32,567 bases of DNA. Source: an uncultured Lachnospiraceae bacterium (GTDB taxonomy: Bacteria > Bacillota > Clostridia > Lachnospirales > Lachnospiraceae). The stretch spans positions 1 through 32,567 of the forward strand of contig CANQGA010000015.1 in the NCBI GenBank assembly GCA_947600145.1, written 5' to 3'. Shown piece after piece: positions 4,609-28,573 of this stretch. A program made the position numbers and the translations under genes. Position 1 is the stretch's first letter, and each line of letters opens with the position of its first letter. The notes beneath the pieces were generated by a model, which was not told the origin of the DNA, searched no databases, and saw only the letters and a list, made by a program, of their open reading frames with translations.

Positions 4609-4654
4609 GCGCCGCGCGGTGGAAAACCCGGAACCGGGAAAGGAGGATCCCGCG

Positions 4655-6034
4655 ATGTGTCCGCACAGGAGCGGGGGGATATCTGAGATGAGCCTGGCAG
4701 ACCGCCTGGCGGCGCTTCTGATGAAGCCGGCCGCCGACAGGGAAAAGCAGAATATCGTCTGGAACATGATCGGCAGCTTCTGTTACGCGTTTGCCAGTAT
4801 GGTGCTGTCTTTCCTGGTCATGCGCATCGCGGGAGACGACGACGGAGGCATCTTCGCCTTCGGATACAGCACCTTCGGCCAGCAGATGTTCCTTGTAGCC
4901 TATTTTGGGCTCCGGCCTTTTCAGATCACGGACGGAAAGGGAGAATACCGTTTCGGCGACTACCTGCTCCACCGCTGTCTGACCTGCGCCCTGGCGGTGG
5001 CGGCGGGCGCGGGGTATCTGCTGCTTGGCGGTTATACCGTCCGGAAGGCGCTGATTATTTTTCTTCTGGTCTGCTACAAGGTGATCGACGGCTTCGCGGA
5101 CGTCTACGAGTCGGAGTTTCAGCGTCAGGGCCATCTGCACCTGACCGGCAAGTCCAACGCGTTTCGGACGATCCTGTCGGTGACGGTGTTCCTTACGGCG
5201 CTTCTGGCCGGGCGGCAGCTGGTCTTCGCCTGCGGAGCGGCGGTGGCGGCCCAGGCAGCCGGCGTCTGGCTCTTTGACGTATCGGTGATCCGCCGCCTTC
5301 CGTCGGTGGACACAGGCCGCGACTGGAGCCGCCTGCGCCCCCTGACCGGCGCCGCGGCGCTGCTGTTTGTGTCGGTGTTTTTGGATTTTTACATTTTTTC
5401 AGCGGCCAAATATGCCATCGACGCCAATATGGACAACGCGGCTTCCGGATATTTTAATATCATATTTATGCCCACGTCGGTGATCAATCTGGCGGCGGGA
5501 TTTGTCATAAGGCCGGTCCTCACGTATCTGACGGACGCCTGGACCGGTCGGGATTTCGCGGCTTTCCGCCGGCTTCTGCGGCGTATCTCAGCCCTGATCG
5601 CGGTGCTTGGCATCGCGGCGGCGGCGCTGGCGTGGTTTGCGGGACGGCCTGTGCTCGGCATCATGGAGAGGCTTCTGGGAGACGGTTACGCCGGAAGCCT
5701 GGTGCGATACCATGTGCCGTTTGTCATGGTAGTGCTGGGCGGGGTGTTTTACGCGATTCTGAACCTGTATTACTATGTGCTGGTGATCCTGCGCAGGCAG
5801 GATGTGATTTTCGGGATCTATGTTGTGATGACGGCAGCGGCGGCGGTGGCCGCGCCCGCGATGGTCCGAAGAGGAGGGATCGGCGGGGCCGCGTTTGCGT
5901 ACCTGATGCTGATGGCAGTCATGGCTGCCGGATTTACGGGAGGAGCCTTAAACCGCGTGCGCGCGGGGGAGAGAGCAGACAGCAGGGGGATTATGAAAAA
6001 TGAATGGCATGGAGATGGAGACAGAGATCTATAA
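4655..6034 (+). CDS. MOP/Wzx-like polysaccharide flippase
   Basis: This polytopic membrane protein of 459 residues has roughly twelve hydrophobic segments spread over its length, as in the MOP superfamily of lipid-linked oligosaccharide flippases. The first helix region is IVWNMIGSFCYAFASMVLSF, and a pattern of paired helices follows. It should move an undecaprenyl-linked sugar or oligosaccharide from the inner to the outer face. The start at 4655 follows a perfect AGGAGG at 4641-4646. An in-frame GTG at 4619 exists but would place that ribosome site inside the gene. Its end overlaps the next gene by 35 bp. A flippase is unexpected next to a complete ABC exporter, which suggests that it serves a side branch or lipid-sugar donor. 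Confidence 0.85.
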   Translation: MCPHRSGGISEMSLADRLAALLMKPAADREKQNIVWNMIGSFCYAFASMVLSFLVMRIAGDDDGGIFAFGYSTFGQQMFLVAYFGLRPFQITDGKGEYRFGDYLLHRCLTCALAVAAGAGYLLLGGYTVRKALIIFLLVCYKVIDGFADVYESEFQRQGHLHLTGKSNAFRTILSVTVFLTALLAGRQLVFACGAAVAAQAAGVWLFDVSVIRRLPSVDTGRDWSRLRPLTGAAALLFVSVFLDFYIFSAAKYAIDANMDNAASGYFNIIFMPTSVINLAAGFVIRPVLTYLTDAWTGRDFAAFRRLLRRISALIAVLGIAAAALAWFAGRPVLGIMERLLGDGYAGSLVRYHVPFVMVVLGGVFYAILNLYYYVLVILRRQDVIFGIYVVMTAAAAVAAPAMVRRGGIGGAAFAYLMLMAVMAAGFTGGALNRVRAGERADSRGIMKNEWHGDGDRDL

Positions 6035-7001
6035 AGGACTTGCCGATCCGGAGGAAAGCCGGACGGAGGCCCGGCGGATGAGCGTGGATGTGATCATCCC
6101 GGTATACCGGCCGGACCGGCGCTTTGCCCGCCTTCTGGCGATGCTGAAGCGGCAGACGTACCCGGTGGACCACATTATTATCATGAATACGGAAAGCCGG
6201 TTCTGGAATGAGGACGGCTATAAAGGAATCCGCGGGATGGAGATCCATCATCTGGAGAAATCCGAGTTCGATCACGGCGGCACCCGCAACCGCGGGGCGG
6301 CGTATTCCACGGCGGATGTGCTGCTGTTTATGACCGACGACGCGGTGCCGCAGGATACGCGCCTGGTGGAACGCCTGGTGGAAGCCCTGAAGCAGAAGGG
6401 GCCGAAGGGCGAGACGGCGGCGGCGGCCTATGCCCGGCAGCTGCCCGACAGGGACTGCCGCGCCATCGAGCGGTATACGAGAAGCTTTAACTATCCGGAC
6501 AAGAGCCGGATCAAGACGGCGGCGGATCTGCCCGGGCTTGGGATTAAGACGTATTTCGCGTCCAATGTCTGCTGCGCTTACCGGAGGGACATTTTCGAGA
6601 GCCGGGGCGGGTTCGTGAACAGGACGATCTTTAATGAAGACATGATCTACGCGGCGGGAGCGGTCCGGGACGGATACGCGATCGTCTACGCGGCCGGCGC
6701 GAAGGTGATCCATTCCCACAATCTGACGTTTTCGCAGCAGTTTCGGAGGAACTTTGACCTGGCGGTGTCCCAGGCGGATCACCCGGAGATATTCCGGGGA
6801 GTGCCGTCGGAGGGAGAGGGGATCCGGATGGTAAAGCAGACTGCCGGATGGCTTGTGAAGACCGGGCGGCTCTGGCTTCTCCCGTCCCTGGTGATCGGGA
6901 GCGCCTTCAAATACGCCGGATACCGGCTGGGGAAGATGTACCGCTTCCTTCCGCGCAGGCTGGTGTTAATGTGCACGGATAACCGGGAATACTGGAGATA
7001 G
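6000..7001 (+). CDS. Rhamnosyltransferase-like family 2 glycosyltransferase
   Basis: This 333-residue GT2 has DVIIPVYRPDRRF at residues 30-42, FDHGGTRNRGA at 90-100, and MTDDAVPQD at 111-119. The FDHGGTRN plus MT(D/Q)DA pair is typical of the group annotated as rhamnosyltransferases (RfbF/WbbL-like). An rmlC gene downstream fits a dTDP-L-rhamnose donor. The first ATG at 6000 has AGGGGGA upstream (5984-5990). Further in-frame ATGs at 6009, 6015 and 6078 remain possible, and the conserved fold only begins near residue 28. The gene overlaps the end of the flippase gene, so the two are probably translationally linked. The C-terminus is basic with a hydrophobic stretch (LWLLPSLVIGSAF). Confidence 0.87.
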   Translation: MNGMEMETEIYKGLADPEESRTEARRMSVDVIIPVYRPDRRFARLLAMLKRQTYPVDHIIIMNTESRFWNEDGYKGIRGMEIHHLEKSEFDHGGTRNRGAAYSTADVLLFMTDDAVPQDTRLVERLVEALKQKGPKGETAAAAYARQLPDRDCRAIERYTRSFNYPDKSRIKTAADLPGLGIKTYFASNVCCAYRRDIFESRGGFVNRTIFNEDMIYAAGAVRDGYAIVYAAGAKVIHSHNLTFSQQFRRNFDLAVSQADHPEIFRGVPSEGEGIRMVKQTAGWLVKTGRLWLLPSLVIGSAFKYAGYRLGKMYRFLPRRLVLMCTDNREYWR

Positions 7002-7052
7002 AGGAAGAAACCGAAGACCGCCGGACGCGGGCAGAAAGAGAGGAAGACGATT

Positions 7053-7472
7053 ATGATGACAATGACGCTGCGGGTCGCGCTGATCCTGGTCTCGGTGGGG
7101 ACGCTGTTTCTGATGATGCGCAGGATCCGTCAGTCCAAGCTTCAGATCGAGAGCGCGGTTTTCTGGATCGTCCTGGCCCTGGTGCTGGTCGTATTCAGCC
7201 TGTTTCCGGCCGCGGCGGATTTCGCGGCTCACTGCCTCGGGATCTACTCTACGGCCAACTTCCTGTTCCTGTTCGCGATCTTTGTGCTGATCGTGAAGGT
7301 ATTTTACATGACGATCCACATCTCCCAGCTGGAGACGAAGATCAAGGAGCTGGTGCAGCACATTGCCCTGGAAGAGAAGAAGCGCCAGGAGGAGAATGCC
7401 CTTCTGGAGAGGCAGATCCGGTCGAAGACAGAGGAAGACGCGGATCGGACCGGAGGAAGCGATGAAGAATAG
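7053..7472 (+). CDS. DUF2304 family small membrane protein
   Basis: This 139-residue protein has three hydrophobic segments (about 4-20, 34-53, 66-88) followed by a charged, coiled-coil-like tail rich in Glu/Lys/Gln (92-139). Length and layout match DUF2304, a family regularly found beside polyprenyl-phosphate-hexose synthases in surface glycan loci. Its biochemical role is not established; partner or flippase-accessory functions have been suggested from context. GAGAGGAAG lies upstream of a run of ATG codons at 7053-7058. The 3' end overlaps the next gene by 11 bp, so the two are likely coupled. Confidence 0.82.
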   Translation: MMTMTLRVALILVSVGTLFLMMRRIRQSKLQIESAVFWIVLALVLVVFSLFPAAADFAAHCLGIYSTANFLFLFAIFVLIVKVFYMTIHISQLETKIKELVQHIALEEKKRQEENALLERQIRSKTEEDADRTGGSDEE

Positions 7473-9150
7473 GCAGGGATATCTGACAATCGGGATCATG
7501 TTTTCGGCGCTGACGGTGCTGGGACTGTGGCATTTTCTGGATGTGAGGACAGGGGTCTCAGTCTCCGGGGATGGGTGGCTTGCGGGCTGGTATCTGGCCC
7601 TGTTCGCCGTCTGTCTGGCGTTTCTGGCGCTGCTGGGCCGGGTATTCTTATCGCAGGGACAGGGAAAGCAGTGGAGCCTTGTCCGGATCTATCCGATCGC
7701 GGGGCTCGGGCTGGGACTTCTGTATCTGTTCGTGCTTCCGCCCATGTCCGCGCCGGATGAGATCAGCCACTATCTGACCGCGTATGATCTGTCCAGCCGT
7801 ATGCTGGGCCGGCCCGCGCGGGCGGAGGACGGTCATGTCCTTGTCCGGGCGGAGGACTGGTTTCTGGAGGACGCCCGCGGCAACTATCTGGTCGATGACA
7901 GCGGACCGTATCTGAGCGCCGCGGGGATCGACAGGGAAGATGAAACGGGGATCGTTCTGTTCGGACAGGAGGTCACGGAAGACACGTACCGGATGATCCA
8001 CGAGATCCTGATCGAGGGAAAAGAGACGCCGCAGCAGCGGATGCTCAGGGAATCCGGGGCCGGGAGGGAGACGCTCGCGGTATCGCCGCTTCCGCCGGTA
8101 AACACCACGCCGGCGGCTTATCTGCCGCAGGCGGCGGGGATCGCGATCGCCAGGATCCTCCGCCTGGACAGCCTGAAGCTTGCTTATCTGGGGCGGCTGT
8201 GCAACCTTCTGTTCTTTGTGGGAATTACATGGCTGGCGCTTAAGCGGATGCCGTTCGGCCGGGAAGTCCTCTTCGGCGTGGCGCTGCTGCCGATGACCCT
8301 GCATCTGTCGGCGTCATTTTCCTATGATGTGATGATCCTCGCCGGAATGTTCCTGCTGACGGCGGTCTGTATGGATCTGGCTTACCGGCAGGAGCGGGTG
8401 CGGGTGCGGGATGTGGTTCTGCTGGCCGTGATCATGGCGGTCTGCGGGCCGTGCAAGATGATCTACGCGCCGATGATGGGGCTCTGCCTGCTGATCCCGG
8501 TGAAGAAATTCGGCGGCTGGAAGCGCTGGCTCGCCTCGGCGGCCGCGGTAGCCGCGGCGTTTGCCGCCGCCATGGTGCTGGTCAACGGGGCGATCATCCT
8601 GCGCTACGCGACGGTGGAAGCCGGGGCCGCGCTGACTTCCGACGGAGAGGCCGGATACAGCCTGACGCTCCTGCTTCATCAGCCGCGCCTGCTTCTGCGG
8701 ATGTTTTACAATACGGTGGTCTACCAGCTGGATGAATTCCATCTGACGATGGTGGGCGCGATGCTGGGCAATCTGGACCCTCAGATGAATGTGCCGTATC
8801 TGCTGGTGGCGTTCTTTACGCTGGGGCTTCTGATGCTGGCGTTCCGCGTTCCCGGCGAGAGCCTGGTGGTCACCGGCGGGCGGAGGATCTGGATCTTCGT
8901 TGTGTGCGCGGCCTGTGCCGCCGCGGCGATGCTGTCCATGCTGATCGCGTGCACGCCCCAGGGTTCGCTTGTCATCGAGGGCGTGCAGGGACGGTACTTC
9001 CTGCCGCTTCTGCCGGCGCTTCTGCTGGCCTGCAAAAACGACCTGTTGGTTTTGACAAAGGATGGAAACCGTAGTATATTGTATCTGATGTGCTGCGCGA
9101 ACCTGTATGTGCTGATCCGGCTCTACGGCGTTGTGTGCCTGCGGGTCTGA
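7462..9150 (+). CDS. DUF2142 family polytopic membrane protein (GT-C-like)
   Basis: This 562-residue protein has many transmembrane segments and a large extracytoplasmic loop after the third or so helix. The motif APDEISHYLTAYDLS, at about 104-118, carries the acidic D-E pair and His typical of DUF2142 and reminiscent of the first-loop acidic motif of GT-C glycosyltransferases that use polyprenyl-phosphate sugars. The start at 7462 follows GGAGG at 7452-7456 and overlaps the DUF2304 gene; an upstream in-frame ATG at 7363 would add an implausible Arg-rich leader that reads through the previous gene. A role as outer-face transferase for the lipid-linked sugar made by the GT2 at 3913 is an inference from gene context and fold relationship. 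Confidence 0.83.
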   Translation: MKNRQGYLTIGIMFSALTVLGLWHFLDVRTGVSVSGDGWLAGWYLALFAVCLAFLALLGRVFLSQGQGKQWSLVRIYPIAGLGLGLLYLFVLPPMSAPDEISHYLTAYDLSSRMLGRPARAEDGHVLVRAEDWFLEDARGNYLVDDSGPYLSAAGIDREDETGIVLFGQEVTEDTYRMIHEILIEGKETPQQRMLRESGAGRETLAVSPLPPVNTTPAAYLPQAAGIAIARILRLDSLKLAYLGRLCNLLFFVGITWLALKRMPFGREVLFGVALLPMTLHLSASFSYDVMILAGMFLLTAVCMDLAYRQERVRVRDVVLLAVIMAVCGPCKMIYAPMMGLCLLIPVKKFGGWKRWLASAAAVAAAFAAAMVLVNGAIILRYATVEAGAALTSDGEAGYSLTLLLHQPRLLLRMFYNTVVYQLDEFHLTMVGAMLGNLDPQMNVPYLLVAFFTLGLLMLAFRVPGESLVVTGGRRIWIFVVCAACAAAAMLSMLIACTPQGSLVIEGVQGRYFLPLLPALLLACKNDLLVLTKDGNRSILYLMCCANLYVLIRLYGVVCLRV

Positions 9151-9242
9151 GAACAGCCCAGAAGGCGCTGTACGCGGCGCGGCCGGCAAGATGGTGCGGC
9201 GGCCCCGCGAATACAGAAGAAATAAAGAAGGAGACGCAAACG

Positions 9243-9797
9243 ATGGGCAATATAAAAGTAACTCCCTGCCATATCAAAGGACTGTACGTGATCGAGCCTG
9301 AGGTCCATGAGGACGCCAGGGGCTATTTTGTGGAGACCTATAATCAGCGGGATTTCCAGGCGGCGGGGCTTGATATGGTGTTTGTTCAGGACAACCAGTC
9401 CATGTCTGTGAAGGGCGTGCTGCGGGGGCTTCATTATCAGAAGCAGTACCCGCAGGGAAAGCTCGTGCGCGCGGTCCGGGGCAGGGTCTTTGACGTGGCG
9501 GTGGATCTTCGCGCCAAATCCCCGACTTACGGGCAGTGGTTCGGCGTGGAGCTGTCGGCGGAGAACAAGAAGCAGTTCTATGTGTCGCCGGGCTTCGCCC
9601 ATGGCTTTCTGGTCCTGTCGGATGAGGCGGAATTCGCCTACAAGGTGACGGATTTCTATCATCCCGGAGATGAGGGAGGTCTGATCTGGAACGATCCTGA
9701 GATCGGTATCGAGTGGCCCATCGAGGAGGGCATGGAGCTGATCTTCTCCGAACGCGATAAGAAATGGGGCGGCCTCGCGGACACGTTCAGGTTCTGA
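9243..9797 (+). CDS. rmlC: dTDP-4-dehydrorhamnose 3,5-epimerase
   Basis: This 184-residue cupin enzyme carries all family landmarks: EVHEDARGYFVETYNQ at the N-terminus, FVQDNQSMSVKGVLRGLHYQ with the catalytic His, KLVRAVRGRVFDVAVDLR, FYVSPGFAHGFLVLSDEAEFAYKVTDFY, and WNDPEIGIEWP. It performs the third step of dTDP-L-rhamnose synthesis, epimerising C3 and C5 of dTDP-4-keto-6-deoxyglucose. The start at 9243 has GGAG at 9230-9233, 9 nt upstream, and gives the normal family length; an in-frame ATG at 9090 lies inside the previous gene and is rejected. The rmlA, rmlB and rmlD partners are not in this window and presumably lie elsewhere. The distinct ketoisomerase FdtA is unlikely given the RmlC motifs. 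Confidence 0.95.
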   Translation: MGNIKVTPCHIKGLYVIEPEVHEDARGYFVETYNQRDFQAAGLDMVFVQDNQSMSVKGVLRGLHYQKQYPQGKLVRAVRGRVFDVAVDLRAKSPTYGQWFGVELSAENKKQFYVSPGFAHGFLVLSDEAEFAYKVTDFYHPGDEGGLIWNDPEIGIEWPIEEGMELIFSERDKKWGGLADTFRF

Positions 9798-9890: not shown

Positions 9891-10703
9891 ATGAATTATC
9901 TTGTCACACTGGCGAAAGAAATGGTAAAGCGGCGGAGACTGATCTGGGACCTGGCGAAATCCGATTTCCGGAAGCGCTTTGTAGGTTCCTATTTCGGCGT
10001 GGTCTGGATGTTTATCCAGCCGGTGGTCACGGTGCTGATCTATTTCTTCGTATTTCAGATGGGTTTTAAGAACGCGCCGCCGATCCCGGGGTATCCGTAT
10101 GTCCAGTGGCTGATCCCCGGCATTGTGCCGTGGTTTTTCATCAGCGAGGCGCTGAATTCAGGAACCGGCTGCCTGCAGGAATACAACTATCTGGTGAAAA
10201 AGGTGGTCTTTCAGGTGGAGATCCTGCCGGTCATCAAGGTGATCTCCTGCCTGATGGTGCATGTGATCTTCGTGCTGATCATGGTGGCCGTGTTTCTGCT
10301 GTACGGAACATTTCCGAAGGTCAGCTGGCTGCAGATCGCGTATTATTCCTTCGCGGCCATGGTCTTTTCGCTGGGGATCGTGTATTTTACCAGCGCGGTC
10401 AATGTGTTTTTCAAGGATATGGCCCAGATCGTCAGCATCTTTCTGCAGGTGTGGATGTGGGTGACCACGATCATGTGGGATCCGGCCATGTTCGCGGACC
10501 ATCCGGCCTGGCTTGACCGGGTGCTTAAGCTGAACCCGGTCTGGTATGTGGTCAACGGGTACCGCGACAGCATGCTGACCGGAAACGCCTTCTGGGAGAG
10601 ACCGGGGGTGACGGTTTATTTCTGGTGTGTGACTGCCGTGCTGTTTCTGGTGGGACTTAAGGTGTTTAAGAGACTGCGGCCGCATTTCTCGGATGTGCTG
10701 TAA
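9891..10703 (+). CDS. wzm: ABC polysaccharide exporter, permease subunit (Wzm/TagG-like)
   Basis: This 270-residue ABC-2-type permease has an N-terminal amphipathic stretch and about six transmembrane segments. Hallmarks are RKRFVGSYFGVVWMFIQPV near residue 27, PGIVPWFFISEALNSG, NVFFKDMAQIVSI, and LNPVWYVVNGYRD near the C-terminus, all typical of O-antigen and teichoic-acid exporters. It forms a dimeric channel that moves a finished undecaprenyl-pyrophosphate-linked polysaccharide across the membrane, powered by the ATPase encoded next. GGGAGAGG (9878-9885 region) precedes the ATG. A 93-bp spacer separates it from rmlC, without an evident terminator. Confidence 0.92.
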   Translation: MNYLVTLAKEMVKRRRLIWDLAKSDFRKRFVGSYFGVVWMFIQPVVTVLIYFFVFQMGFKNAPPIPGYPYVQWLIPGIVPWFFISEALNSGTGCLQEYNYLVKKVVFQVEILPVIKVISCLMVHVIFVLIMVAVFLLYGTFPKVSWLQIAYYSFAAMVFSLGIVYFTSAVNVFFKDMAQIVSIFLQVWMWVTTIMWDPAMFADHPAWLDRVLKLNPVWYVVNGYRDSMLTGNAFWERPGVTVYFWCVTAVLFLVGLKVFKRLRPHFSDVL

Positions 10704-10783: not shown

Positions 10784-12178
10784 ATGGAGAATGCCATCAT
10801 CGTAAAAGATGTGACAAAAATCTATAAATTATATGATAAACCCATTGACCGGCTGAAGGAGTCCTTAAATCCTTTTCACAGGGAGTACCACAGGAAATTT
10901 TACGCATTGAACGGCCTGTCCTTCTCCGTGGAGAAGGGTCAGACTGTGGGGATCATCGGAACCAACGGCTCCGGCAAGTCCACGATCCTTAAGATCATCA
11001 CCGGCGTCCTGTCACCCACCACGGGGGAGGTGACGGTGAACGGCACGGTGTCGGCGCTCCTGGAGCTGGGGGCCGGCTTCAATATGGATTACACCGGTAT
11101 CGAGAATATCTATATGAACGGCAGTATGATGGGCTTTTCCCGGAAAGAGATGGACGCCAGGCTTCAGGATATCCTGGATTTCGCGGATATCGGGGATTTT
11201 GTGAACCAGCCGGTAAAGACCTATTCCAGCGGTATGTTCGTCCGTCTGGCTTTCGCGCTGGCGATCAACGTGGAGCCGGAGATCCTGATCGTGGACGAGG
11301 CGCTGTCGGTCGGGGACGTATTCTTCCAGGCCAAGTGCTACCGGCGTATGGAAGAGATCCGGAAAAAGGGCACCACGATCCTGATGGTGACCCATGACAT
11401 GGGCAGTATCCTGAAGTATTGCGATAAGGTGGTACTGCTGAACAAGGGCAATTTTATCGCGGAAGGAACCGCCGGACATATGGTGGATCTGTATAAGAAG
11501 ATCCTGGCGAATCAGATGGATTCGCTGGAGGAGGAACTGGCGGCGGAGCGCCGGACGGAAGCTGAAGCGGCGGCCCAAGGCACCGGGAGGACGGACGGCG
11601 CGGCGGTCCGGGATGCTGAGGCGAAGGGCGGCGCGGCCGCGGATCCGGGCGGAATACGGGGCGACGGAGGTCAGAAGCCGGGACCTTCCCTTATGAAGGA
11701 CAAACTGGCCGTTAACCCCAGGCGGACGGAATACGGCGACGGCCGGGCGGAGATCTATGATATGGGGCTGTTTGATCAGAGAGGGAATCTGACGAGCCTG
11801 CTCTTAAAGGGAGAGAAGTTCACGATCCGGGAGAGGATCCGGTTCCACGCTCCGGTTCAGGCGCCTATTTTCACATATACGATCAAGGATAAGAAGGGAA
11901 CGGAACTGACGGGTACGAATACCCTGTACGAGGGGGCGGATATCCGGCCGGTGCAGGACGGCGACGAATACGATGTTTCCTTTACCCAGAAAATGACTCT
12001 GCAGGGGGGAGAATATCTGCTGAGTATGAGCTGCACCGGATTTGAGATGGGGGAACATGTGGTTTACCACCGCCTCTATGATGTGCTGGGACTGACCGTG
12101 ATCTCGAACAAGAACACGGTGGGTGTGTACGATATGGAGTCAGAGGTAAGGGCTGAAAAGACGAAAGGAACAACATGA
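10784..12178 (+). CDS. wzt: ABC polysaccharide exporter, ATP-binding subunit with C-terminal substrate domain (Wzt-like)
   Basis: This 464-residue protein is longer than a bare export ATPase. The nucleotide-binding domain has Walker A GTNGSGKST (59-67), a YSSGM signature (147-151), Walker B ILIVDEAL (167-174) and the switch His204. A charged Ala/Gly/Glu-rich linker (about 245-305) then leads to a beta-rich C-terminal domain (about 310-455). In E. coli O8/O9a-type systems that C-terminal domain recognises the modified non-reducing end of the chain and so couples export to termination. This is exactly what a terminator enzyme encoded next would need. AGGAGG at 10772-10777 precedes the ATG. The stop overlaps the next start by four bases (ATGA at 12175-12178), so the two products are made together. 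Confidence 0.93.
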   Translation: MENAIIVKDVTKIYKLYDKPIDRLKESLNPFHREYHRKFYALNGLSFSVEKGQTVGIIGTNGSGKSTILKIITGVLSPTTGEVTVNGTVSALLELGAGFNMDYTGIENIYMNGSMMGFSRKEMDARLQDILDFADIGDFVNQPVKTYSSGMFVRLAFALAINVEPEILIVDEALSVGDVFFQAKCYRRMEEIRKKGTTILMVTHDMGSILKYCDKVVLLNKGNFIAEGTAGHMVDLYKKILANQMDSLEEELAAERRTEAEAAAQGTGRTDGAAVRDAEAKGGAAADPGGIRGDGGQKPGPSLMKDKLAVNPRRTEYGDGRAEIYDMGLFDQRGNLTSLLLKGEKFTIRERIRFHAPVQAPIFTYTIKDKKGTELTGTNTLYEGADIRPVQDGDEYDVSFTQKMTLQGGEYLLSMSCTGFEMGEHVVYHRLYDVLGLTVISNKNTVGVYDMESEVRAEKTKGTT

Positions 12179-15100
12179 GATCAGAGAAAGAACGAACGGA
12201 AACAGAGCGGAAGCTTCTGGGACTTCTGAAGACCTACGGAGCCGATGTGAAGGCGATCCTCGGGGCGAATCCCAGACTGGAATACCTTTACGCCCTCTCA
12301 CCCCAGCGGGAGAACCTGCTGGAATGGTATCCGTTTCGCGGGGACGGAACGCTCCTTGAGGTGGGATCCGATTTCGGGGCGCTGACAGGCCTCTATGCCC
12401 GGAAGGTATCCAGAGTGGATGTGCTTGATCCGTCCTGGGCCAATCTGGAGATCAACCGCCTGCGCCACAGCGGGCAGGACTTTTTTAAGAACATCAATTA
12501 TGTGCAGGGAACGCTTTCCGAATATCTGCCACAGGCGAAGGGACTTTATGACTATGTGGTCATCGTCGGGGATCTGGAACAGGATGAATTGAGCGAAGAG
12601 GAAAGCGCGGCCCAGATCCGGGCGGCCAAGTCGCTCCTCAAGCCCGACGGCGAGCTGATCGCGGCCGTCTGCAATCCGTTCGGGATCAAATATTGGGCCG
12701 GCGCGGCGAAGGACGGCCACAGTCTGTCGAAATCCGCGCTGACGAAATGGCTTTCCGAGGGCGAGGACGGCAGTCTGGAATTCTATTACCCGATGCCGGA
12801 TTACAAGCTGCCGGTGACCATTTATTCCGACGCGTATCTTCCGCGGGAGGGAGATCTGACGGATACGGTCGCGGCCTATGATTTTCCGGATTATCCGTTT
12901 TTTGACATGGGGGCGGCCTTCGACCAGGCGGTCCGGGACGGCAGGTTCGACCAGTACGCCAACGCGTATCTGGCGATCTGGCGGCGCGGCGGCCGGATGA
13001 TCCAGCAGAGCGGGCCCCAGTATATGAAATATAACCGCACCCGGCGGGAAGAATTCCAGTTAAAGACCGTGATCCTCGGCGGCGCTGACGGAGTCCGGCG
13101 GGTCGAGAAGAGCGCGCTGACGGAGGAAGGCAGGGTCCATATCAGTCATTTCGTCTCGCAGTACGCGGCGCTATCCGCCCAGCATAAGTTCCTGAACTAT
13201 CTGGAAGGAGAACAGGCAGCGGACAGCAGTTCGGTTGCATTTCCGTATCTGACGGGACGGACGCTGGCGGCGAGGCTGACGGATGAGCTTTCGGACGGAA
13301 GCGCGCCGGTCGAGCTGATCCGGCAGACCATCGATGTGCTGCTGGCATCGGAGATCGGCGATATAGAGCCGTTTGCGCCGACAGAAGGGTTCGCGCTGGT
13401 CTTCGGCAGGAAAGAAATGGATGTGCTGGCGGAGCAGAAGCCGGACGCCGGATGGAATGTGCCCTGCCTGCATGTGTCCAATATCGATCTCCTGTTTGAA
13501 AATGTGCTGCTGACCGACGACGGAAACTATTGCCTGGACTATGAGTGGGTCTTTGATTTTCCGGTTCCCGTCGATTATATCCGTTACCGGATCCTGTTCT
13601 ACGCCTACCGGCAGTTTAAGAGCCTGCTGTCTGACTGCGGGACGCTGACCGAATGGCTTGGGCAGTTCGGCATTACGCCGGAGGCGGAGGCGCTCTACGA
13701 TGCCATGGAACGGAATTTCCAGTATTATGTCCATGGGGAGAACCAGGTCCTTTATCTGGAGAATTATCTGGTAAAGCCGCGGACCGCGAAGGGCTTTACG
13801 GAGATGGATGAGCAGCTGCGCCGCCTGGAGAGCGAGCTTGCGCGGTCAAAGGAAAATGAAGAGCGGTTAAAGGCCCAGATCCATGACCAGGGCGCCGCGA
13901 TCCGCAAAATGACGGAGGTCAAGCGGCTGACGGACAACCATGTGACGAATCTGGAGATCATGATCAGGGATCTGCGGCATGAGATCGACGAGATGGGGAA
14001 GACCCTGACATACTTAAACGGCCATGAGGCGCTTATTTTCAAAGTCCGCCGCAGGCTGGGCGAGAAATTCAACGCGAAGTATCCGAAGGGCTCGCCGCAG
14101 AGGAAACGGCTTCACTACCGGAAGGAATATCTGACGCATCCGATCCGCTCCTTCCGGTTCTATCGGACGGAAGAAGGAAAAAACCTGAGAGACGGTGATT
14201 TTGAGATCGGGGACGCGTACCGGGAGCACCGGAAGCTGGTGTTTCCGCCGGCCGAACAGCCGGAGGTATCCATCGTGATCCCGGTTTATAATCAGATCGG
14301 CTATACTTACGCGTGTCTGGTCTCGATCCTGGAGAATACGAAGGATGTATCCTATGAGATCATTATCGCCGACGACGTGTCCACCGACGCCACGGAGCAT
14401 ATCAGCCGCTACGCGGAGGGCGTGACGGTCAGCCGTAACGAGACCAATCAGGGCTTCCTCAGAAACTGCAATCAGGCGGCGAAAAAGGCCCGCGGCCGCT
14501 ATATCATGTTCCTGAATAATGACACCCGTGTGACGGAGGGGTGGCTTACGGCGCTTGTGAACCTGATCCGCTCCGACGATTCGATCGGTATGACAGGTTC
14601 CAAGCTGGTCTATCCCGACGGGAGGCTTCAGGAAGCGGGCGGTATCATCTGGAGCGACGGTTCCGGATGGAACTACGGCCGGCTGGACGATCCGGACAAG
14701 CCCCAGTACAATTACGTGAAGGATGTGGACTACATTTCCGGGGCCGCGATCCTCATACGGAGAAGCCTGTGGGAGCAGATCGGCGGATTCGACGAGCGCT
14801 ACGCGCCGGCCTACTGTGAGGACTCGGATCTGGCTTTCGAGGTGAGAAAGGCCGGTTACCGGGTCGTATACCAGCCGCTTTCGAAGGTGATCCATTATGA
14901 AGGGATCTCTAACGGAACCGATGTGCAGGGCGGCGGCCTTAAGCGGTATCAGGCCGGGAATTCGGAGAAGCTTAAGGAGAAATGGGCGGAGGAGCTGAAA
15001 CATCAGTGTGAGAACAACGGCAATCCCGATCCGTTCCGGGCCCGCGAGCGCAGCATGGGCAGGCCGATTATTCTGGTGATCGACCATTATGTGCCTACGT

Positions 15101-16191
15101 TTGACAAGGACGCCGGATCCAGAACCACTTACCAGTACCTGAAAATGTTCTTGAAGCATGGCTATGTGGTCAAATTCCTTGGGGACAATTTCGCCCACGA
15201 GGAGCCCTATTCCACGGCGCTGGAGCAGATGGGCGTCGAGATCCTGTCCGGTCCGGAGTACGAAGCGGGTATCTGGGACTGGATCTCGGCCCATGGGAAG
15301 GACATTTCCGCCGCGTATCTGAACCGGCCCCATATCGCCATCAAATATGTGGACTATCTGAGGGAGAACACGGATATCCGGCTGATCTACTACGGGCACG
15401 ATCTGCATTATCTGCGGGAAAGCAGGGAATACGCTCTGACCATGGATCCGGACCGCCGGCGCGCGGCCGACTACTGGAAGGGCATTGAACTGTCCCTGTT
15501 TTATAAGGTGGACATGTCCTACTATCCGTCCTGTGTGGAGAGAGATGCGGTCCGGGCCGAGGATGAGAATATCCCGGTGAAGGATATTGTGGCCTATGTG
15601 TACGATGAGTTCAGAGAAAACATTCCGCGGGACTTTGCCAGGAGGGAGGGCATCCTCTTCGTGGGAGGCTTCGCCCACCCGCCGAACGCCGACGCGGTCC
15701 TGTGGTTTACGAAGGAGGTCTACCCGCTGATCGCGGACCGCATGCGCGGGGAAGGCGCCGAGCCGCCGAAGTTCTACGTTGTGGGTTCGAGGGTGACCGA
15801 TGAGATCAAAGCGCTGGAGCAGACGGTGCCCGGCGTGGTGGTCAGGGGCTTCGTAAGTGATGAAGAGCTGACTCAGCTCTATGATGAGACCAGGCTAGTA
15901 GTTGTACCGCTGCGCTACGGCGCGGGAGTCAAGGGCAAGGTAGTGGACGCCCTTTACAACGGGGCCGCCGTCGTCACGACATCCATCGGCGCCGAGGGCA
16001 TCCCTCACGCGGAGGATGTGATGGTCATTGCCGATCAGGCGGACGCCCTGGCAGAAGCGGTGCTCAGGATCTATCAGAGCCCGGAGAGCTGTCAGGCATT
16101 AAGTGAACGAACCCAGGATTATGTGCGCCGATACTATAGCCAGGAAGCGGCCTGGGATGTGATAAAGGATGATTTCCCATGCGGGCCGTGA
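12175..16191 (+). CDS. Multidomain methyltransferase / kinase-like / coiled-coil / GT2 / GT4 protein, WbdD-like with fused glycosyltransferases
   Basis: Five modules are visible in 1338 residues. (1) About 1-230 is a class I SAM methyltransferase, with LLEVGSDFGALTG (60-72) and an acidic strand end VDVLDPS (81-87). (2) About 275-530 looks like an aminoglycoside-phosphotransferase-type kinase: Lys312 in VEKSA, N436-I-D438-x4-N443 matching the HxDxxxxN catalytic loop with Asn for His, and LDYEW with Asp455 as the metal ligand. (3) About 541-615 is a Glu/Arg/Leu-rich coiled coil. (4) About 697-930 is a GT2, with SIVIPVYNQ, ADDVSTD, FLNND and EDSDLAFEV. (5) About 963-1338 is a GT4/GT1-like domain, with GGFAHPPNADAVLWF and PLRYGAGVKGKVVDAL. 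Modules 1-3 repeat the order of E. coli O9a WbdD, the chain-terminating and length-setting enzyme. ATGA overlap with wzt supports a joint job. The kinase call is from motif reading only. Confidence 0.85.
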   Translation: MRSEKERTETERKLLGLLKTYGADVKAILGANPRLEYLYALSPQRENLLEWYPFRGDGTLLEVGSDFGALTGLYARKVSRVDVLDPSWANLEINRLRHSGQDFFKNINYVQGTLSEYLPQAKGLYDYVVIVGDLEQDELSEEESAAQIRAAKSLLKPDGELIAAVCNPFGIKYWAGAAKDGHSLSKSALTKWLSEGEDGSLEFYYPMPDYKLPVTIYSDAYLPREGDLTDTVAAYDFPDYPFFDMGAAFDQAVRDGRFDQYANAYLAIWRRGGRMIQQSGPQYMKYNRTRREEFQLKTVILGGADGVRRVEKSALTEEGRVHISHFVSQYAALSAQHKFLNYLEGEQAADSSSVAFPYLTGRTLAARLTDELSDGSAPVELIRQTIDVLLASEIGDIEPFAPTEGFALVFGRKEMDVLAEQKPDAGWNVPCLHVSNIDLLFENVLLTDDGNYCLDYEWVFDFPVPVDYIRYRILFYAYRQFKSLLSDCGTLTEWLGQFGITPEAEALYDAMERNFQYYVHGENQVLYLENYLVKPRTAKGFTEMDEQLRRLESELARSKENEERLKAQIHDQGAAIRKMTEVKRLTDNHVTNLEIMIRDLRHEIDEMGKTLTYLNGHEALIFKVRRRLGEKFNAKYPKGSPQRKRLHYRKEYLTHPIRSFRFYRTEEGKNLRDGDFEIGDAYREHRKLVFPPAEQPEVSIVIPVYNQIGYTYACLVSILENTKDVSYEIIIADDVSTDATEHISRYAEGVTVSRNETNQGFLRNCNQAAKKARGRYIMFLNNDTRVTEGWLTALVNLIRSDDSIGMTGSKLVYPDGRLQEAGGIIWSDGSGWNYGRLDDPDKPQYNYVKDVDYISGAAILIRRSLWEQIGGFDERYAPAYCEDSDLAFEVRKAGYRVVYQPLSKVIHYEGISNGTDVQGGGLKRYQAGNSEKLKEKWAEELKHQCENNGNPDPFRARERSMGRPIILVIDHYVPTFDKDAGSRTTYQYLKMFLKHGYVVKFLGDNFAHEEPYSTALEQMGVEILSGPEYEAGIWDWISAHGKDISAAYLNRPHIAIKYVDYLRENTDIRLIYYGHDLHYLRESREYALTMDPDRRRAADYWKGIELSLFYKVDMSYYPSCVERDAVRAEDENIPVKDIVAYVYDEFRENIPRDFARREGILFVGGFAHPPNADAVLWFTKEVYPLIADRMRGEGAEPPKFYVVGSRVTDEIKALEQTVPGVVVRGFVSDEELTQLYDETRLVVVPLRYGAGVKGKVVDALYNGAAVVTTSIGAEGIPHAEDVMVIADQADALAEAVLRIYQSPESCQALSERTQDYVRRYYSQEAAWDVIKDDFPCGP

Positions 16192-19551: not shown

Positions 19552-21939
19552 ATGACCGATATCCTTTATTCTCTGATGGACTGGCGTGCCATTGAAGAGC
19601 TGGTCTATTCTGAATCCTGCGATCCGCATCGGATCCTGGGACCGCATGTCGTGCCTCAGGGCGTGCTGATCCAGGCGTTTATCCCGACGGCGTCCCGGAT
19701 CACCGTGCTGACGGATGGCGACGGACATGCCTACCCCATGGAACTGGCCGATGAAGCGGGATTTTTTGCCGCGCTCCTTCCCGGCGCTGCAGTACCCGCG
19801 TACACGCTGGAAGTGACTTATGACAACGGGACTTCCCAGCTGCTTTCCGATCCCTATGCGTACGCCCCACAGCTGGACGAAGGAGATCTGAAGAAATTTG
19901 ACGCCGGCGTCCTTGGCGCCGTCTATGAGAAGCTTGGCGCCCATCCGATGGAGGTCGGAGGCGTGCGGGGCACCTATTTCGCGGTATGGGCCCCCTGCGC
20001 CATGCGCGTCAGCGTAGTCGGCGATTTCAATCTCTGGGACGGACGCCGTCATCAGATGCGCAGACTTGGCAGCCACGGTATTTTTGAGATATTCCTGCCC
20101 GGCATCGCGCAGGGAACGATCTACAAATACGAGGTGAAGACGGCAGGCGGCGCCGCCATGCTCAAGGCCGACCCTTACGGCACATACGCGGAGGTGCGTC
20201 CCCACGACGCATCGATCGTGTGGGATACGTCGCATTTTGAATGGCACGATCAGGAATGGATGAAGCGGCGGGCCGAGGGCCGGGAAACGGCGGCACGGCA
20301 GCCGATGTCGATCTACGAGGTGCATTTGGGATCGTGGATGCGCCGGAGGAAAGCGGAGACGGACGGCGGGGCCGGCGCGTTTCTGAATTACCGCGAGCTG
20401 GCGGTGAAGCTGGCCGAATATGTGAAGGAGATGGGCTACACCCATGTGGAGCTGATGCCTATCATGGAACATCCTCTGGACGCCTCCTGGGGATATCAGA
20501 CGACCGGATATTACGCTCCCACCAGCCGCCACGGTTCGCCGGATGATTTTCAGTATTTTATAGACTATCTGCACAGCCGGGATATCGGCGTGATCCTGGA
20601 CTGGACGCCGGCTCAGTTTCCGCGCGATCTGGCGGGGCTTGCCTGTTTCGACGGCAGCTGCGTCTATGAGCACAAGGATCCGAGGCAGGGGACCCATCCC
20701 CAGTGGGGGACGCTGATCTTCAATTACGGACGCCCCCAGGTGGCCAATTTCCTGATTTCAAACGCCCTCTTCTGGACCGGGGTATATCACGCCGACGGCA
20801 TCCGCGCCGACTGCGTGGCGGCAATGCTTTATCTGGACTACGGCAAGGGGCCCGGCCAGTGGATCCCGAATATTTACGGCGGCAATGAGAATCTGGACGC
20901 GGTGGATTTTCTGCGGCGGCTGTCGGCCTGCTTCCATAAGAGAGAGGACGGGGCGGTCCTGATCGCCGAGGAATCCGCGGCCTGGCCGCTGGTGACAGGG
21001 AACGAGGACGGCGCGCTGGGGTTTGATTACAAATGGAACAGCGGATGGCTGAATGATTTCTTGGGATATATGAGATATGACCCGTATTTCCGGCACCAGC
21101 GGTACGGAGAGCTGACGTTCAGCATGCTGTACGCCTACAGCGAGGCATTCATTCTGGCGCTCCCGCATCATGAGATGGCGCACGGGCGCGGCTCTATGGC
21201 AGGCAAAATGCCGGGAGGGACTCTGGCGGAGAAGCTCGCTCATCTTCGGGCGGCATACGGATACTGGATGACCCATCCGGGCAAGAAGCTGCTGTTCATG
21301 GGGCAGGATATGGGCATGACGGAGGACTGGAACGAGAATGTAAGTCTTCCCTGGGAAATGCCGGACGGGCCTTCGGATGAGGAGGCCGGGGCGCCGCGCG
21401 GGGAGAAGGCCGGGGGGCCAAGTCCGGAGGAGGCCGGGGCGCCGCGCGGGGAGAAGGCCGGAGCGCCGGACGGGGCAGCCGGGGATCAGCGGATCCTCCG
21501 CCGGCAGTTCCGCGATTATGTCAGGGCGCTCCTGCAGCTGTATCGCTCGCATCCGGCGCTCTATGCGCTGGACGATCAGCCGGACGGGTTCGAGTGGATC
21601 GACTGCCTGAGCAGTCAGGAGAATATTCTGGCGTATCTGCGCCTGTCCGCGCAGCCCCGGGAGACGCTGCTGGCAGTCTGCAATTTCGCTCCCGCGGAGC
21701 ATAGTAAGCGGCAGATCGGCGTTCCGTTTGCCGGGAGGTACCGGGAGATCTTTAACAGCAGCGCCCGGGAATTCGGCGGAAACGGCGTGGGGAATCCGAA
21801 GGAGATCCAAAGCGTTTTGGAGGAATGCGACGGCCGGGCCCAGTCTGTCACGATCCGGATACCGCCGCTGAGTATTCTGATCTTTGCGTGTACGCCGGAT
21901 GAAAGCGCCGGAAAGGCGGATGGGAGACAAAAGAAATGA
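19552..21939 (+). CDS. glgB: 1,4-alpha-glucan branching enzyme homologue with altered active site
   Basis: This 795-residue GH13 protein has the full GlgB layout: N-terminal beta domains including FAVWAPCAMRVSVVGDFNLWDG (about 143-164), the barrel, and a C-terminal beta domain. Close matches to E. coli GlgB include WGYQTTGYYAPTSRHG, CFDGSCVYEHKDPRQG and YGGNENLDAVDFL. The nucleophile Asp is kept (GIRADCVAAM, D420), and so is the acid/base Glu (IAEESAAWP, E473/474). The third catalytic Asp in the usual SHDEVVHG is His here (PHHEMAHG, H540), and the HFP histidine of the barrel is Gln (DWTPAQFP, Q355). A 45-residue low-complexity insert (602-646) contains a duplicated 16-residue unit. It may be a weakened branching enzyme, a different transglycosylase, or non-catalytic. 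Its stop overlaps the channel gene (ATGA). Confidence 0.88.
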   Translation: MTDILYSLMDWRAIEELVYSESCDPHRILGPHVVPQGVLIQAFIPTASRITVLTDGDGHAYPMELADEAGFFAALLPGAAVPAYTLEVTYDNGTSQLLSDPYAYAPQLDEGDLKKFDAGVLGAVYEKLGAHPMEVGGVRGTYFAVWAPCAMRVSVVGDFNLWDGRRHQMRRLGSHGIFEIFLPGIAQGTIYKYEVKTAGGAAMLKADPYGTYAEVRPHDASIVWDTSHFEWHDQEWMKRRAEGRETAARQPMSIYEVHLGSWMRRRKAETDGGAGAFLNYRELAVKLAEYVKEMGYTHVELMPIMEHPLDASWGYQTTGYYAPTSRHGSPDDFQYFIDYLHSRDIGVILDWTPAQFPRDLAGLACFDGSCVYEHKDPRQGTHPQWGTLIFNYGRPQVANFLISNALFWTGVYHADGIRADCVAAMLYLDYGKGPGQWIPNIYGGNENLDAVDFLRRLSACFHKREDGAVLIAEESAAWPLVTGNEDGALGFDYKWNSGWLNDFLGYMRYDPYFRHQRYGELTFSMLYAYSEAFILALPHHEMAHGRGSMAGKMPGGTLAEKLAHLRAAYGYWMTHPGKKLLFMGQDMGMTEDWNENVSLPWEMPDGPSDEEAGAPRGEKAGGPSPEEAGAPRGEKAGAPDGAAGDQRILRRQFRDYVRALLQLYRSHPALYALDDQPDGFEWIDCLSSQENILAYLRLSAQPRETLLAVCNFAPAEHSKRQIGVPFAGRYREIFNSSAREFGGNGVGNPKEIQSVLEECDGRAQSVTIRIPPLSILIFACTPDESAGKADGRQKK
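21379..21474 (+). repeat. Two tandem 48-bp coding repeats in glgB
   Basis: Copies start at 21379 and 21427, each opening with gaggaggccggggcgcc. They encode EEAGAPRGEKAG plus four variable residues. They form the insert in the GlgB homologue between the barrel end and the C-terminal part. The first 35 bases of the two copies are identical. Confidence 0.85.
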
Positions 21940-23336
21940 TCTGGAACCAGGAAGATATTTTTGAGACGCCTGCCGCGGAGACGGCCGCCGGATCCGGAAA
22001 CGGGCAGGGAGGCGGGGAAGTGTCCGGCGGGGAAGGAAATGCGCCGGGCGGAAGCGGCGAAACGTCCGGGGGCGCGGATGAGGAGAGCCGCGGGGAAGCG
22101 TCCGGAAGCGCGGATGAAGAGAGCCGCGGGGAAGCGTCCGGGGATGCGGATGAGGAGAACCGCGAAGAGGCTGAAGGAAACGCGGATGAAGAAAACCGCG
22201 AGGAGGCCGGCGGAAACGCGGATGAAGAGAGCCGTGAAGAGGCTGAAGGAAACGCGGATGAAGAAAACCGTGAGGAGACAGGGGGAAACTCGGATGAAGA
22301 GTACGGCACGGAGACCGATGGGAGCGGAAGCTATATTATCGGAGAGGACGGCGGGACGCAGATCGTCTTCGATGCGGAGCCGGAGACGGAATATATTGTC
22401 GGAACGCCTGTCAACACCACGGCAGACGTTTCTTCCGGCAAGGATTCCGGCGGCTTCATTTCCAAAACATACTCGGGAGCGGCGGGCATGATCGCGAAAA
22501 CGGCCGAGAGCGCGGCCAAAAGCGCGGCTCCGGCACTCAAAACCATAGGCTTCAATCTGGTGAACGCGGTTCTGATCCTGTTTATCGGAATCCAGATAGC
22601 GAAGCTTTGCCGGAAGATGCTCAACAGGACTTTTGAACGGATCCATATGGACAGCTCCCTGCGGTCGTTTCTGACCTCCATCATCTATGCCCTCATCTGC
22701 GGGGTGGCGGCTTTCATGGCTATGGAGCGCGTGGGGATCAGTTCCGCCTCTATCATCGCGCTCCTCGGTTCCGCGGGCCTGGCCGTCAGTCTGTCGCTGC
22801 AGGATTTCCTGGGAAATTTCGCCGGCGGAGTGATCATCCTGATCTTAAAGCCCTTCAGGGCGGGGGATTACATCGTCTGCGGTTCGGCGGAGGGGACGGT
22901 TGCTTCCACGAGTCTGTTCTACACAACGCTGAATACGATAGATAACCGTCAGATGATCCTGCCCAACGGCGCGCTGTCCAACGCGAATATTATCAATGTG
23001 ACCGCCGAGGAGAAGCGGCGTCTGGAGATCCGGGTGGATATTTCCTATGAATCCGATCTCCGCAGGGCGAAGGAGATCCTGGCGCGGCTGTACGATGAAC
23101 AGCCCGATATTCTTCATGAGGAGGATGTGCTCGTCTTTGTTGATTCCCTGGGAGAAAGCGGGATCACCCTGGTCGCCAGGGGCTGGATCGCCACGGATAA
23201 GTACTGGCCTGCCAAATGGGAACTGACGGAGAAGGTGAAATATGCCTTCGACGAGGCGGGTATCGTGATCCCGTACAGACAGGTGGTCGTGCATACGGGA
23301 GTCTCCGGGAAGAAGGAGGAGAAAGAGGAGACGTGA
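21936..23336 (+). CDS. MscS-family mechanosensitive channel with acidic repeat N-terminus
   Basis: This 466-residue protein ends in a recognisable MscS core. It has TM1 at about 204-222, TM2 at about 244-263, and the pore helix TM3 at about 268-306 (ALLGSAGLAVSLSLQDFLGNFAGG, with the small-residue packing pattern). The beta domain contains GDYIVCGSAEGTV and ILPNGALSNANIINV. Such channels open under membrane tension and release solutes during osmotic downshock. The first 200 residues are unusual: Gly/Glu-rich low complexity with seven 12-residue acidic repeats and no signal peptide. They would probably face outward if the topology follows MscS. The ATG overlaps the glgB stop (21936-21939), so translation is coupled, and a terminator follows at 23380. 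Confidence 0.9.
   Translation: MIWNQEDIFETPAAETAAGSGNGQGGGEVSGGEGNAPGGSGETSGGADEESRGEASGSADEESRGEASGDADEENREEAEGNADEENREEAGGNADEESREEAEGNADEENREETGGNSDEEYGTETDGSGSYIIGEDGGTQIVFDAEPETEYIVGTPVNTTADVSSGKDSGGFISKTYSGAAGMIAKTAESAAKSAAPALKTIGFNLVNAVLILFIGIQIAKLCRKMLNRTFERIHMDSSLRSFLTSIIYALICGVAAFMAMERVGISSASIIALLGSAGLAVSLSLQDFLGNFAGGVIILILKPFRAGDYIVCGSAEGTVASTSLFYTTLNTIDNRQMILPNGALSNANIINVTAEEKRRLEIRVDISYESDLRRAKEILARLYDEQPDILHEEDVLVFVDSLGESGITLVARGWIATDKYWPAKWELTEKVKYAFDEAGIVIPYRQVVVHTGVSGKKEEKEET
22068..22319 (+). repeat. Seven tandem 36-bp coding repeats
   Basis: Seven 36-bp units encode residues 45-128 of the MscS protein, with consensus G-(N/S/D)-A-D-E-E-(N/S)-R-(E/G)-E-A-x. The units keep the reading frame and differ mainly at positions 2, 7, 9 and 12. 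The block is strongly acidic, and unit number is likely to vary between strains. Confidence 0.9.
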
Positions 23337-28100: not shown

Positions 28101-28549
28101 CGGGACCGGGTATCGCGTTCCCTGACGCGGCGGTTCCGGGGGCGCCGGGGCTTGCGGGACAGTCGGGCCCCGCGTCGGGCGGCGTGTCCGCAGCGGGCGC
28201 CGTGACCGGTCTCTGGCAGCAGGCGGCAGACGGGCGCTGGTCCTTCCTTGTGGGACAGCAGCCGTATCGCGGCCGGTGGGCCTATATTTTCAATTCGTAT
28301 GCGGATCCTCTGAAGGGACAGTCGAATGTGGACTGGTTCTATTTTGACGAGGACGGAAGCATGGCGACAGGCTGGAGATGGATCCCCGCGGGCGACGGCC
28401 TGCTGAGGTGCTACTATTTCAATGAGATCTCAGACGGCACGCGGGGAGCCATGCTCCACGGATGTACGACGCCTGACGGCTGGCAGGTGGACGAAAGCGG
28501 CGCATGGACGCTCGGCGGCGCCGTACAGACCAGACAGGCGCAGCAGTAA
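25154..28549 (+). CDS. Large surface protein with GLUG-like repeats and C-terminal wall-binding-like region
   Basis: This 1131-residue exported protein has a long-n-region signal peptide (about 1-48, with MKRRAAAVMAAAVLLQSW as the core). An FPGDGTEEKPYQIRS region follows that is typical of the start of GLUG and adhesin beta-helices. GLUG-like units occur at about 292-375 (VGGIAGEAKEADLVDSTV, VGGVAGRMEETRIYNSYV, VGGLVGEYVSGDLIL). The middle is beta-rich and Ig-like. A Ser/Gly/Pro linker leads to a C-terminal part (about 1025-1120) with WFYFDEDGSMATGWRWI, CYYFNE and GWQVDESGAW, which resembles choline/glucan-binding wall repeats. No LPXTG motif is seen, so attachment is probably non-covalent. 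AAAAGGAG precedes the ATG; the Met at residue 23 lacks a ribosome site. It lies 43 nt after the DUF6273 gene. Confidence 0.82.
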   Translation: MEKNRKRITDDQFGKSGLRGRCMKRRAAAVMAAAVLLQSWSGGLTAAAHMAAEKTAGVVQQEDMAAFEEEFQTATISDAAAMAAVLSDPWEGWNGDADFPGDGTEEKPYQIRSLAHLMGLSQAVAEGESFEGEYFELTQDINLANLDVNGGNWNPIGWYQSADEMDGEVQHPFSGHFDGRGHMIRNLNIDGTEAGLSCLGLFGVIDGGSVENVKVTAGNIFGCDQTAVLAGVIRGGAVIRDVTVSGYVSAKGGEPGHAGGITAVADGSGGRVTIENCTADNIAVASDQTTGCVGGIAGEAKEADLVDSTVQTGRINSNHIQGLGYVGGVAGRMEETRIYNSYVSGLIGGHQSRAVGGLVGEYVSGDLILGRFAGEISPTGMGKATREGTFVGTRDLSHPFRYGTEPGDNLAYLFADTAPGAKQASGSGEEDDNTFSYSAHIGYWLDNQRSFSLLSGNAEKSGGDTYFYQELENGVRFIITSKLQNEFTAQGSTEGLSFRLDHFAPGQQGQPVKGYLLSVPRIDTRNANGTYDTDVASLTAVPEGNSSYYRPIDKNNPAAVAPGVTVTVTTAPKNRETDRYQMAADSSERGGVKPPVYINKLGRQVPMSYVTGGTYTFTMPERDTQINVEYVKVTTQLTMTPEETEINVTQTRTGDRKSPDIVTEVRDGRGTLIARYIDEMQDASVQVQPVRIHSEHNADGGAADRSVLWSVDDSDLIDLVSEAGYTGKDAQILPNLNGAFIRNTAAEQAQAQADGGYLEAIRPTVYEKHAVVTASSNPDTSADHVAVLGNCKVTVRFQILDYTTRRVEGLQLNKSDVVMTVTRKLTGSRLNPTETITCSEPVVLAASLYPERPFYKNVSWSDAGSGAAVLLTPQGSNASQCAVTVRYDAGGKENPAWIQNVINADNEKKKKDPYAKAEGSAQYTETVTAVSEDQTNGHIFAQCRITICLKTEDQTTVRSSGGSSGSGGGTASSGSGMGGGQSAGPGIAFPDAAVPGAPGLAGQSGPASGGVSAAGAVTGLWQQAADGRWSFLVGQQPYRGRWAYIFNSYADPLKGQSNVDWFYFDEDGSMATGWRWIPAGDGLLRCYYFNEISDGTRGAMLHGCTTPDGWQVDESGAWTLGGAVQTRQAQQ

Positions 28550-28573
28550 GAAAGAATCTGAGGGAGGTACAGC

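Follow-up and report, generated by a model that had tools for sequence, protein, structure and literature searches.

Contig CANQGA010000015.1 of an uncultured Lachnospiraceae bacterium, probably from the gut (assembly GCA_947600145.1), was analysed over positions 1 to 32,567, and this whole stretch of 32,567 nucleotides is hereafter called the window. The open reading frame (ORF) at 12175-16191 on its forward strand encodes a protein of 1338 amino acids, which joins a methyltransferase dependent on S-adenosylmethionine (SAM), a kinase-like domain, a helix of about 98 residues and two glycosyltransferase domains of families GT2 and GT4. This gene, a candidate capping polymerase, overlaps wzt, which encodes the ATPase of an ATP-binding cassette (ABC) transporter.

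10784..12178, + strand: wzt, ABC transporter ATPase (PF00005, 86 bits)
11726..12136, + strand: substrate-recognition domain Wzt_C (PF14524, 136-139 bits; curated cut-off 30.4)
12175..12178, + strand: ATGA stop-start overlap of wzt and the capping polymerase, read from the sequence
12175..12996, + strand: class I SAM methyltransferase domain, residues about 1-274
12997..13779, + strand: kinase-like domain with an aminoglycoside phosphotransferase (APH)-type protein-kinase-like fold, residues about 275-535 (AlphaFold, fold searches, homology to O7-ORF6-like proteins)
13108..13110, + strand: codon of K312, presumed ATP-binding lysine (conservation in homologues)
13486..13503, + strand: D438-x4-N443, presumed catalytic loop (conservation, alignment to Pseudomonas asturiensis D443)
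13537..13548, + strand: D455-Y-E-W, presumed metal-binding DFG-like motif (conservation)
13786..14079, + strand: predicted coiled-coil rod, residues 538-635 (single helix in the model, COILS-type score at 538-581 and 588-615)
14257..14994, + strand: GT2 domain, residues about 695-940 (PF00535, 92 bits)
15055..16176, + strand: GT4 domain, residues about 961-1334 (PF13692, 76 bits)

Pfam matched the product at 61-159 (methyltransferase), 699-866 (GT2) and 1159-1301 (GT4), and the middle region has no family. A preliminary description made from the letters of this DNA had named a methyltransferase motif at 60-72, a kinase-like K312/D438-x4-N443/D455-YEW set, a coiled coil at 541-615, GT2 and GT4 domains in that order, the ATGA overlap and a Wzt C-terminal domain beyond the ATPase, all of which were recovered. 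Homologues were collected from 79 relative loci, 77 of which contain the kinase region, so that 78 proteins (that of the window and 77 homologues) were compared. The GT2 residues N781-N782-D783 and E882-D883 are invariant in all 78. The rod segment is 90 residues long in 50 of the 78 rows and 97 residues, one heptad more, in 10 rows including the window. Linker length classes of 184 and 189 were also considered as heptad steps and dropped, as the difference sits in the loop before GT2 and not in the rod.

The preliminary description had tied its proposal to a kinase fold in the middle region and to a sugar-binding fold in the Wzt C-terminal domain. Residues 272-548 indeed model as a protein-kinase-like domain (AlphaFold predicted local distance difference test, pLDDT, 89.7), and the Wzt tail falls into the Wzt_C family. 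According to fold searches, the kinase-like domain resembles APH, MPH and AmiN, and it is of the aminoglycoside-phosphotransferase type. D438, N443, D455, E457 and W458 are each present in all 77 homologues, Y456 in 76, and K312 in 76 with one gap. Sequence methods did not see this fold: the window protein has no match to PF01636 (APH) or PF00069 (Pkinase) at E 0.01, while WbdD matches both, and no relative of the kinase emerged when solved structures were searched by sequence, the best profile match being unrelated (E 0.14). An antibiotic-resistance kinase, which the likeness to aminoglycoside and macrolide phosphotransferases might suggest, was rejected, because the domain belongs to a protein encoded behind wzt, within a glycan operon, and shares homology with proteins of a proven sugar-kinase type.

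The protein had been called WbdD-like, and this held only in part. Among solved structures, Foldseek ranked WbdD first for the 1-640 model (E 3.1e-9, over the methyltransferase-kinase pair), and the domain order and coiled coil agree with it. Sequence kinship was not convincing: profile comparison by hhalign with the wbdD product of E. coli HS (P0002), which entered as a single sequence and thus leaves room for very remote kinship, gave probabilities of 0.1 (kinase profile A1) and 11.6 (profile A2, methyltransferase part only). The protein was therefore not placed in the WbdD family on sequence, even though no solved structure matches the pair better than WbdD. WbdD was not among the 50 matches listed in the kinase-only fold searches, which carries no weight either way. 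RefSeq annotates the wbdD gene of E. coli HS (L120, 12967-15093) as nothing more than a class I SAM-dependent methyltransferase.

Different relatives were reached by tblastn of residues 1-547 against plasmids, which hit two places (E 1e-4 and 7e-4) encoding P0003 of Pseudomonas asturiensis (1457 amino acids, with a methyltransferase and two GT2 domains) and P0004 of Citrobacter braakii (649 amino acids), both directly behind wzm-wzt with Wzt_C. Over the methyltransferase and kinase together, the window family matches P0003 with probability 99.7 (E 2.6e-25) and P0004 with probability 99.6 (E 5.4e-24) in profile comparison, and the window GT2 shares 30% identity (E 4e-28) with the second GT2 of P0003. 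P0003 has Y28, Y66, G91, G93, E112 and Y158, i.e. six of the six SAM-site residues published for ORF6 of Klebsiella pneumoniae O7 (PMC11231755), at identical numbers; P0003 is therefore very probably, judging by its sequence, an ORF6 orthologue. P0004 has these residues shifted by one. D438 of the window aligns with D443 of P0003, which seems to correspond to D441, the residue proven to be catalytic in ORF6-O7. By sequence, the window protein thus groups with the Klebsiella O7 ORF6 type and not with WbdD.

ORF6-O7 was reported to phosphorylate and methylate the terminal rhamnose in vitro, the D441A substitution abolishing the kinase (PMC11231755, 2024), and its two C-terminal GT2 modules, behind the coiled coil, are rhamnosyltransferases (PMC11231755). 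It thus already joins a methyltransferase, a kinase, a coiled coil and two rhamnosyltransferases (PMC11231755), and the architecture found here is not new as such. As in the window, all these parts lie on one chain, the kinase is APH-like, and the cluster holds wzm, wzt and dTDP-rhamnose genes (PMC11231755). ORF6-O7 differs in a carbohydrate-binding module between kinase and rod, the need for which was left open (PMC11231755); no such module is found in the window protein, where the last kinase helix of the model runs to residue 531 and the long helix begins at 538. The pair is GT2 and GT2 in ORF6-O7, and GT2 and GT4 in the window. The window host is Gram-positive, judging by its relatives, in which the methyltransferase is often a separate gene. 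ORF6 orthologues are named from alpha- and gammaproteobacteria and cyanobacteria, with homologues in a methanogen; no Gram-positive is named in the available text, and some orthologues end after the coiled coil (PMC11231755).

WbdD of E. coli O9/O9a resembles the window in its methyltransferase, kinase and coiled coil and in a gene adjoining wzt; it carries no glycosyltransferases, and its kinase was described as resembling eukaryotic kinases (PMC3482155). WsaE of Geobacillus stearothermophilus is, by its description, alike in being Gram-positive and in joining a methyltransferase with two rhamnosyltransferases on one chain, and wzm, wzt and wsaE overlap there (PMC2943079, PMC3898925). Unlike the cap proposed for the window, that of WsaE is 2-O-methyl, and no kinase is mentioned in the available parts of these papers. 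Members of the Lcin_0519 family, again likened by description, have a kinase and a methyltransferase, commonly a coiled coil, and in some cases nearby wzt and wzm; the groups named are Gram-negative (PMC9758233). Among the listed literature matches, none describes a Gram-positive kinase-bearing fusion in its title or abstract start, most subscription journals lying outside the search. In a separate search for an E. bolteae polysaccharide, none of the 10 matches listed out of 211 deals with it.

The methyltransferase is fused in 42 of the 78 proteins, is a separate upstream gene in 34 and is cut off in 2; in the 34 split loci its gene immediately precedes the kinase gene. Lacrimispora xylanisolvens (L070), a cultured relative, has the split form. 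On a quick tree, the fused or split state can be explained by 5 changes, of which well-supported branches force 4, compared with a mean of 25 for shuffled labels. A Wzt with the Wzt_C tail lies upstream in 74 of the 79 loci (71 within 200 nucleotides, 3 about 3 kb off), one of which, L076, has no kinase; the remaining 5 loci hold at most 74 upstream bases. With first-start ORFs, the exact 4-nucleotide overlap occurs in 19 of the 74 relative loci in which the upstream gene is present. The Wzt_C of the window wzt is the only one found in its genome. In 195 genomes including this one (E up to 1e-5), the kinase profile matches 77 and Wzt_C 88; both occur in 72, the kinase alone in 5, Wzt_C alone in 16 and neither in 102, and outside the own genus the figures are 48, 5, 15 and 101, shared ancestry being uncorrected in both sets. 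Of the 77 genomes with the kinase, 68 have a strong Wzt_C within 4 kb of it. The kinase was matched in 7 of the 398 genomes of a phylum-wide sample, including the own one, and in one of these over 51 positions only. In G412 (L124), the methyltransferase, a kinase with coiled coil and a tailed Wzt are encoded by separate adjoining genes.

The domains, folds, invariant and presumed catalytic residues, O7-ORF6-like homology, predicted rod, and Wzt_C linkage and co-occurrence were computed here. We consider it likely that the protein is a chain-terminating polymerase for a surface glycan exported by the ABC transporter and probably containing rhamnose; beyond these results, we infer the cap chemistry, which sugar is involved, that the rod acts as a ruler and that Wzt_C recognises the cap. 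Rhamnose is supported by rmlC in the operon and by rmlA and rmlD, found elsewhere in the genome in a search that covered these two genes. The C-terminal GT2 and GT4 domains would lengthen a polyprenyl-linked chain at the membrane, while the rod would space the N-terminal head off by a constant distance. Once the tip of the growing chain meets the head, the APH-type kinase would phosphorylate the terminal sugar and the methyltransferase would methylate the terminal phosphate, so that growth would stop; Wzt_C of the adjoining transporter would then recognise the capped end, and the chain would be exported. This cap-and-export reading is well supported by the homology to the ORF6-O7 type, a proven terminator, and by the co-occurrence of kinase and Wzt_C, but as a variation, in Gram-positives, on a design already known. 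The interpretation in the preliminary description was partly supported and mostly right, with the Klebsiella O7 ORF6 design taking the place of WbdD. Its picture of a self-contained machine was too strong, since the methyltransferase is separate in 34 of the 78 cases and other genes must supply the primer and donor-sugar functions.

Several observations weigh against this reading. ORF6-O7 (MN173773.1) was compared through P0003 and not directly, so the link to it runs via a proxy, and P0004 has a Glu at the counterpart of D455. The Foldseek match to WbdD reaches a template modelling (TM) score of 0.32 at best, with a root-mean-square deviation (rmsd) of 15.9. Solved-structure searches for the GT4 domain gave weak matches only, none of them informative. 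The co-occurrence counts are, as noted above, uncorrected for shared ancestry. In 27 of the 42 rows, D takes the place of the second SAM-motif glycine, and the N-lobe helix at 319-336 has no standout conserved glutamate among the 77 homologues, although the ion-pair glutamate is also reported missing in Lcin_0519 (PMC9758233). C. difficile Ox247 carries an S-layer glycan that contains rhamnose, is exported by an ABC transporter and has a 2,3-cyclic phosphate on its terminal rhamnose (PMC6254364). This supports the reading in that phosphate ends occur in clostridia, and weighs against it in that the end is a cyclic phosphate and not methyl-phosphate.

The Ox247 glycan also favours a different cap, in which the head would add phosphate, cyclic phosphate, or methyl and phosphate groups on different positions. 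The separate methyltransferase gene in 34 of 78 cases and a SAM motif looser than that of P0003 point the same way. We regard this as rather unlikely, because the homology covers both domains of the O7-ORF6 type, a proven methyl-phosphate maker, and because the split methyltransferase genes stand directly before the kinase gene. That the kinase-like domain is non-catalytic and methylation alone caps the chain, as in Geobacillus WsaE, would agree with the missing conserved glutamate and with three loci (L076, L134 and L135, below) that share the GT2-GT4 pair and a methyltransferase head and have no kinase match. The conservation of K312 (one gap), D438, N443 and D455 across the 77 homologues would be unexpected in a dead kinase; we hold this explanation to be very improbable. 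It is hardly more probable that kinase and methyltransferase modify the repeats all along the chain without terminating it, with length being set elsewhere. A limited literature search yielded no data on end groups in any member from these genomes, which leaves room for decoration, while the predicted rod between head and polymerase, the Wzt_C linkage and the homology to a proven terminator argue for termination.

The GT2-GT4 pair was also found with other heads. A GT4 profile (E up to 1e-60) matched 8 of 398 genomes, including the own one, and together with C. tepidiprofundi (L076) this gives nine loci.

L076, 7997-11944: GT2-GT4 with methyltransferase head without kinase match, longer coiled coil, Wzt_C
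L134, 2558-6241: GT2-GT4 with methyltransferase head without kinase match, longer coiled coil, Wzt_C
L135, 3269-6901: GT2-GT4 with methyltransferase head without kinase match, longer coiled coil, Wzt_C
L123, 2611-6579: GT2-GT4 with PS_pyruv_trans head (97 bits)
L136, 3160-6684: GT2-GT4 with borderline sulfotransferase head (27.8 bits, cut-off 27), coiled coil and Wzt_C
L138, 1661-4624: GT2-GT4 with another methyltransferase, without coiled coil
L137, 4855-7065: GT2-GT4 without head, adjoining a weakly matched glycerophosphotransferase gene
L139: GT4 alone

In L134-L136 and L138 the N-terminal part was run against Pfam, and the head functions are taken from family names in few loci. Since Pfam misses even the window kinase, the absence of a kinase in these four loci rests on phmmer and the profile search. 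Unlike in L076, L134 and L135, the Wzt of L123 (7269-8009, 246 amino acids) lacks the Wzt_C tail, a single case. As the GT2-GT4 pair carries different heads in other Bacillota, exchangeable capping heads are suggested; tentatively, one conserved polymerase may bear methyltransferase plus kinase, methyltransferase alone (with a longer coiled coil), pyruvyltransferase or perhaps sulfotransferase heads across the phylum, the Wzt tail perhaps varying according to the head. This set of heads on one polymerase is apparently the fresh element of the finding.

Upstream of the polymerase and wzt lie wzm, rmlC, two GT2 genes, DUF2304 and DUF2142 genes and a flippase-like gene, including the following:

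9891..10703, + strand: wzm, ABC transporter permease (PF01061, 54 bits)
9243..9797, + strand: rmlC, dTDP-4-dehydrorhamnose 3,5-epimerase (PF00908, 248 bits; start inferred inside ORF 9090-9797)
7462..9150, + strand: DUF2142 membrane protein, perhaps a GT-C-type side-chain transferase (PF09913, 162 bits; start inferred inside ORF 7363-9150)
7053..7472, + strand: small membrane protein, DUF2304, role inferred (PF10066, 110 bits)
6000..7001, + strand: GT2 enzyme, perhaps a polyprenyl-phosphate sugar synthase for side chains (PF00535, 55 bits)
4619..6034, + strand: membrane protein with about 10 hydrophobic segments (hydropathy), flippase-like by appearance, without Pfam or NCBIfam family

The row of GT2, DUF2304 and DUF2142 genes (6000-9150) looks like a three-component system for extracytoplasmic side-chain addition, and the membrane protein at 4619-6034 is matched in many relative loci. 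Elsewhere in the window, an MscS-type channel (21936-23336) has a long N-terminal region of acidic repeats, with 36- and 72-base DNA repeats at 22054-22301. Two large proteins are encoded at 25154-32567: one matches choline-binding repeats weakly, below cut-off, and the other has a SpaA-like domain and extends past the end of the window.

If the exchange of heads is true, pyruvate and sulfate would be new kinds of chain-terminating export caps, and natural swaps of heads, rod lengths and Wzt tails on one polymerase could directly test how caps are made and recognised. The terminating polymerase proposed here would bring the measure-and-cap logic of Gram-negative O antigens into a large Gram-positive group, the Lachnospiraceae, in which little seems to be known about how such glycans are controlled in length and leave the cell.

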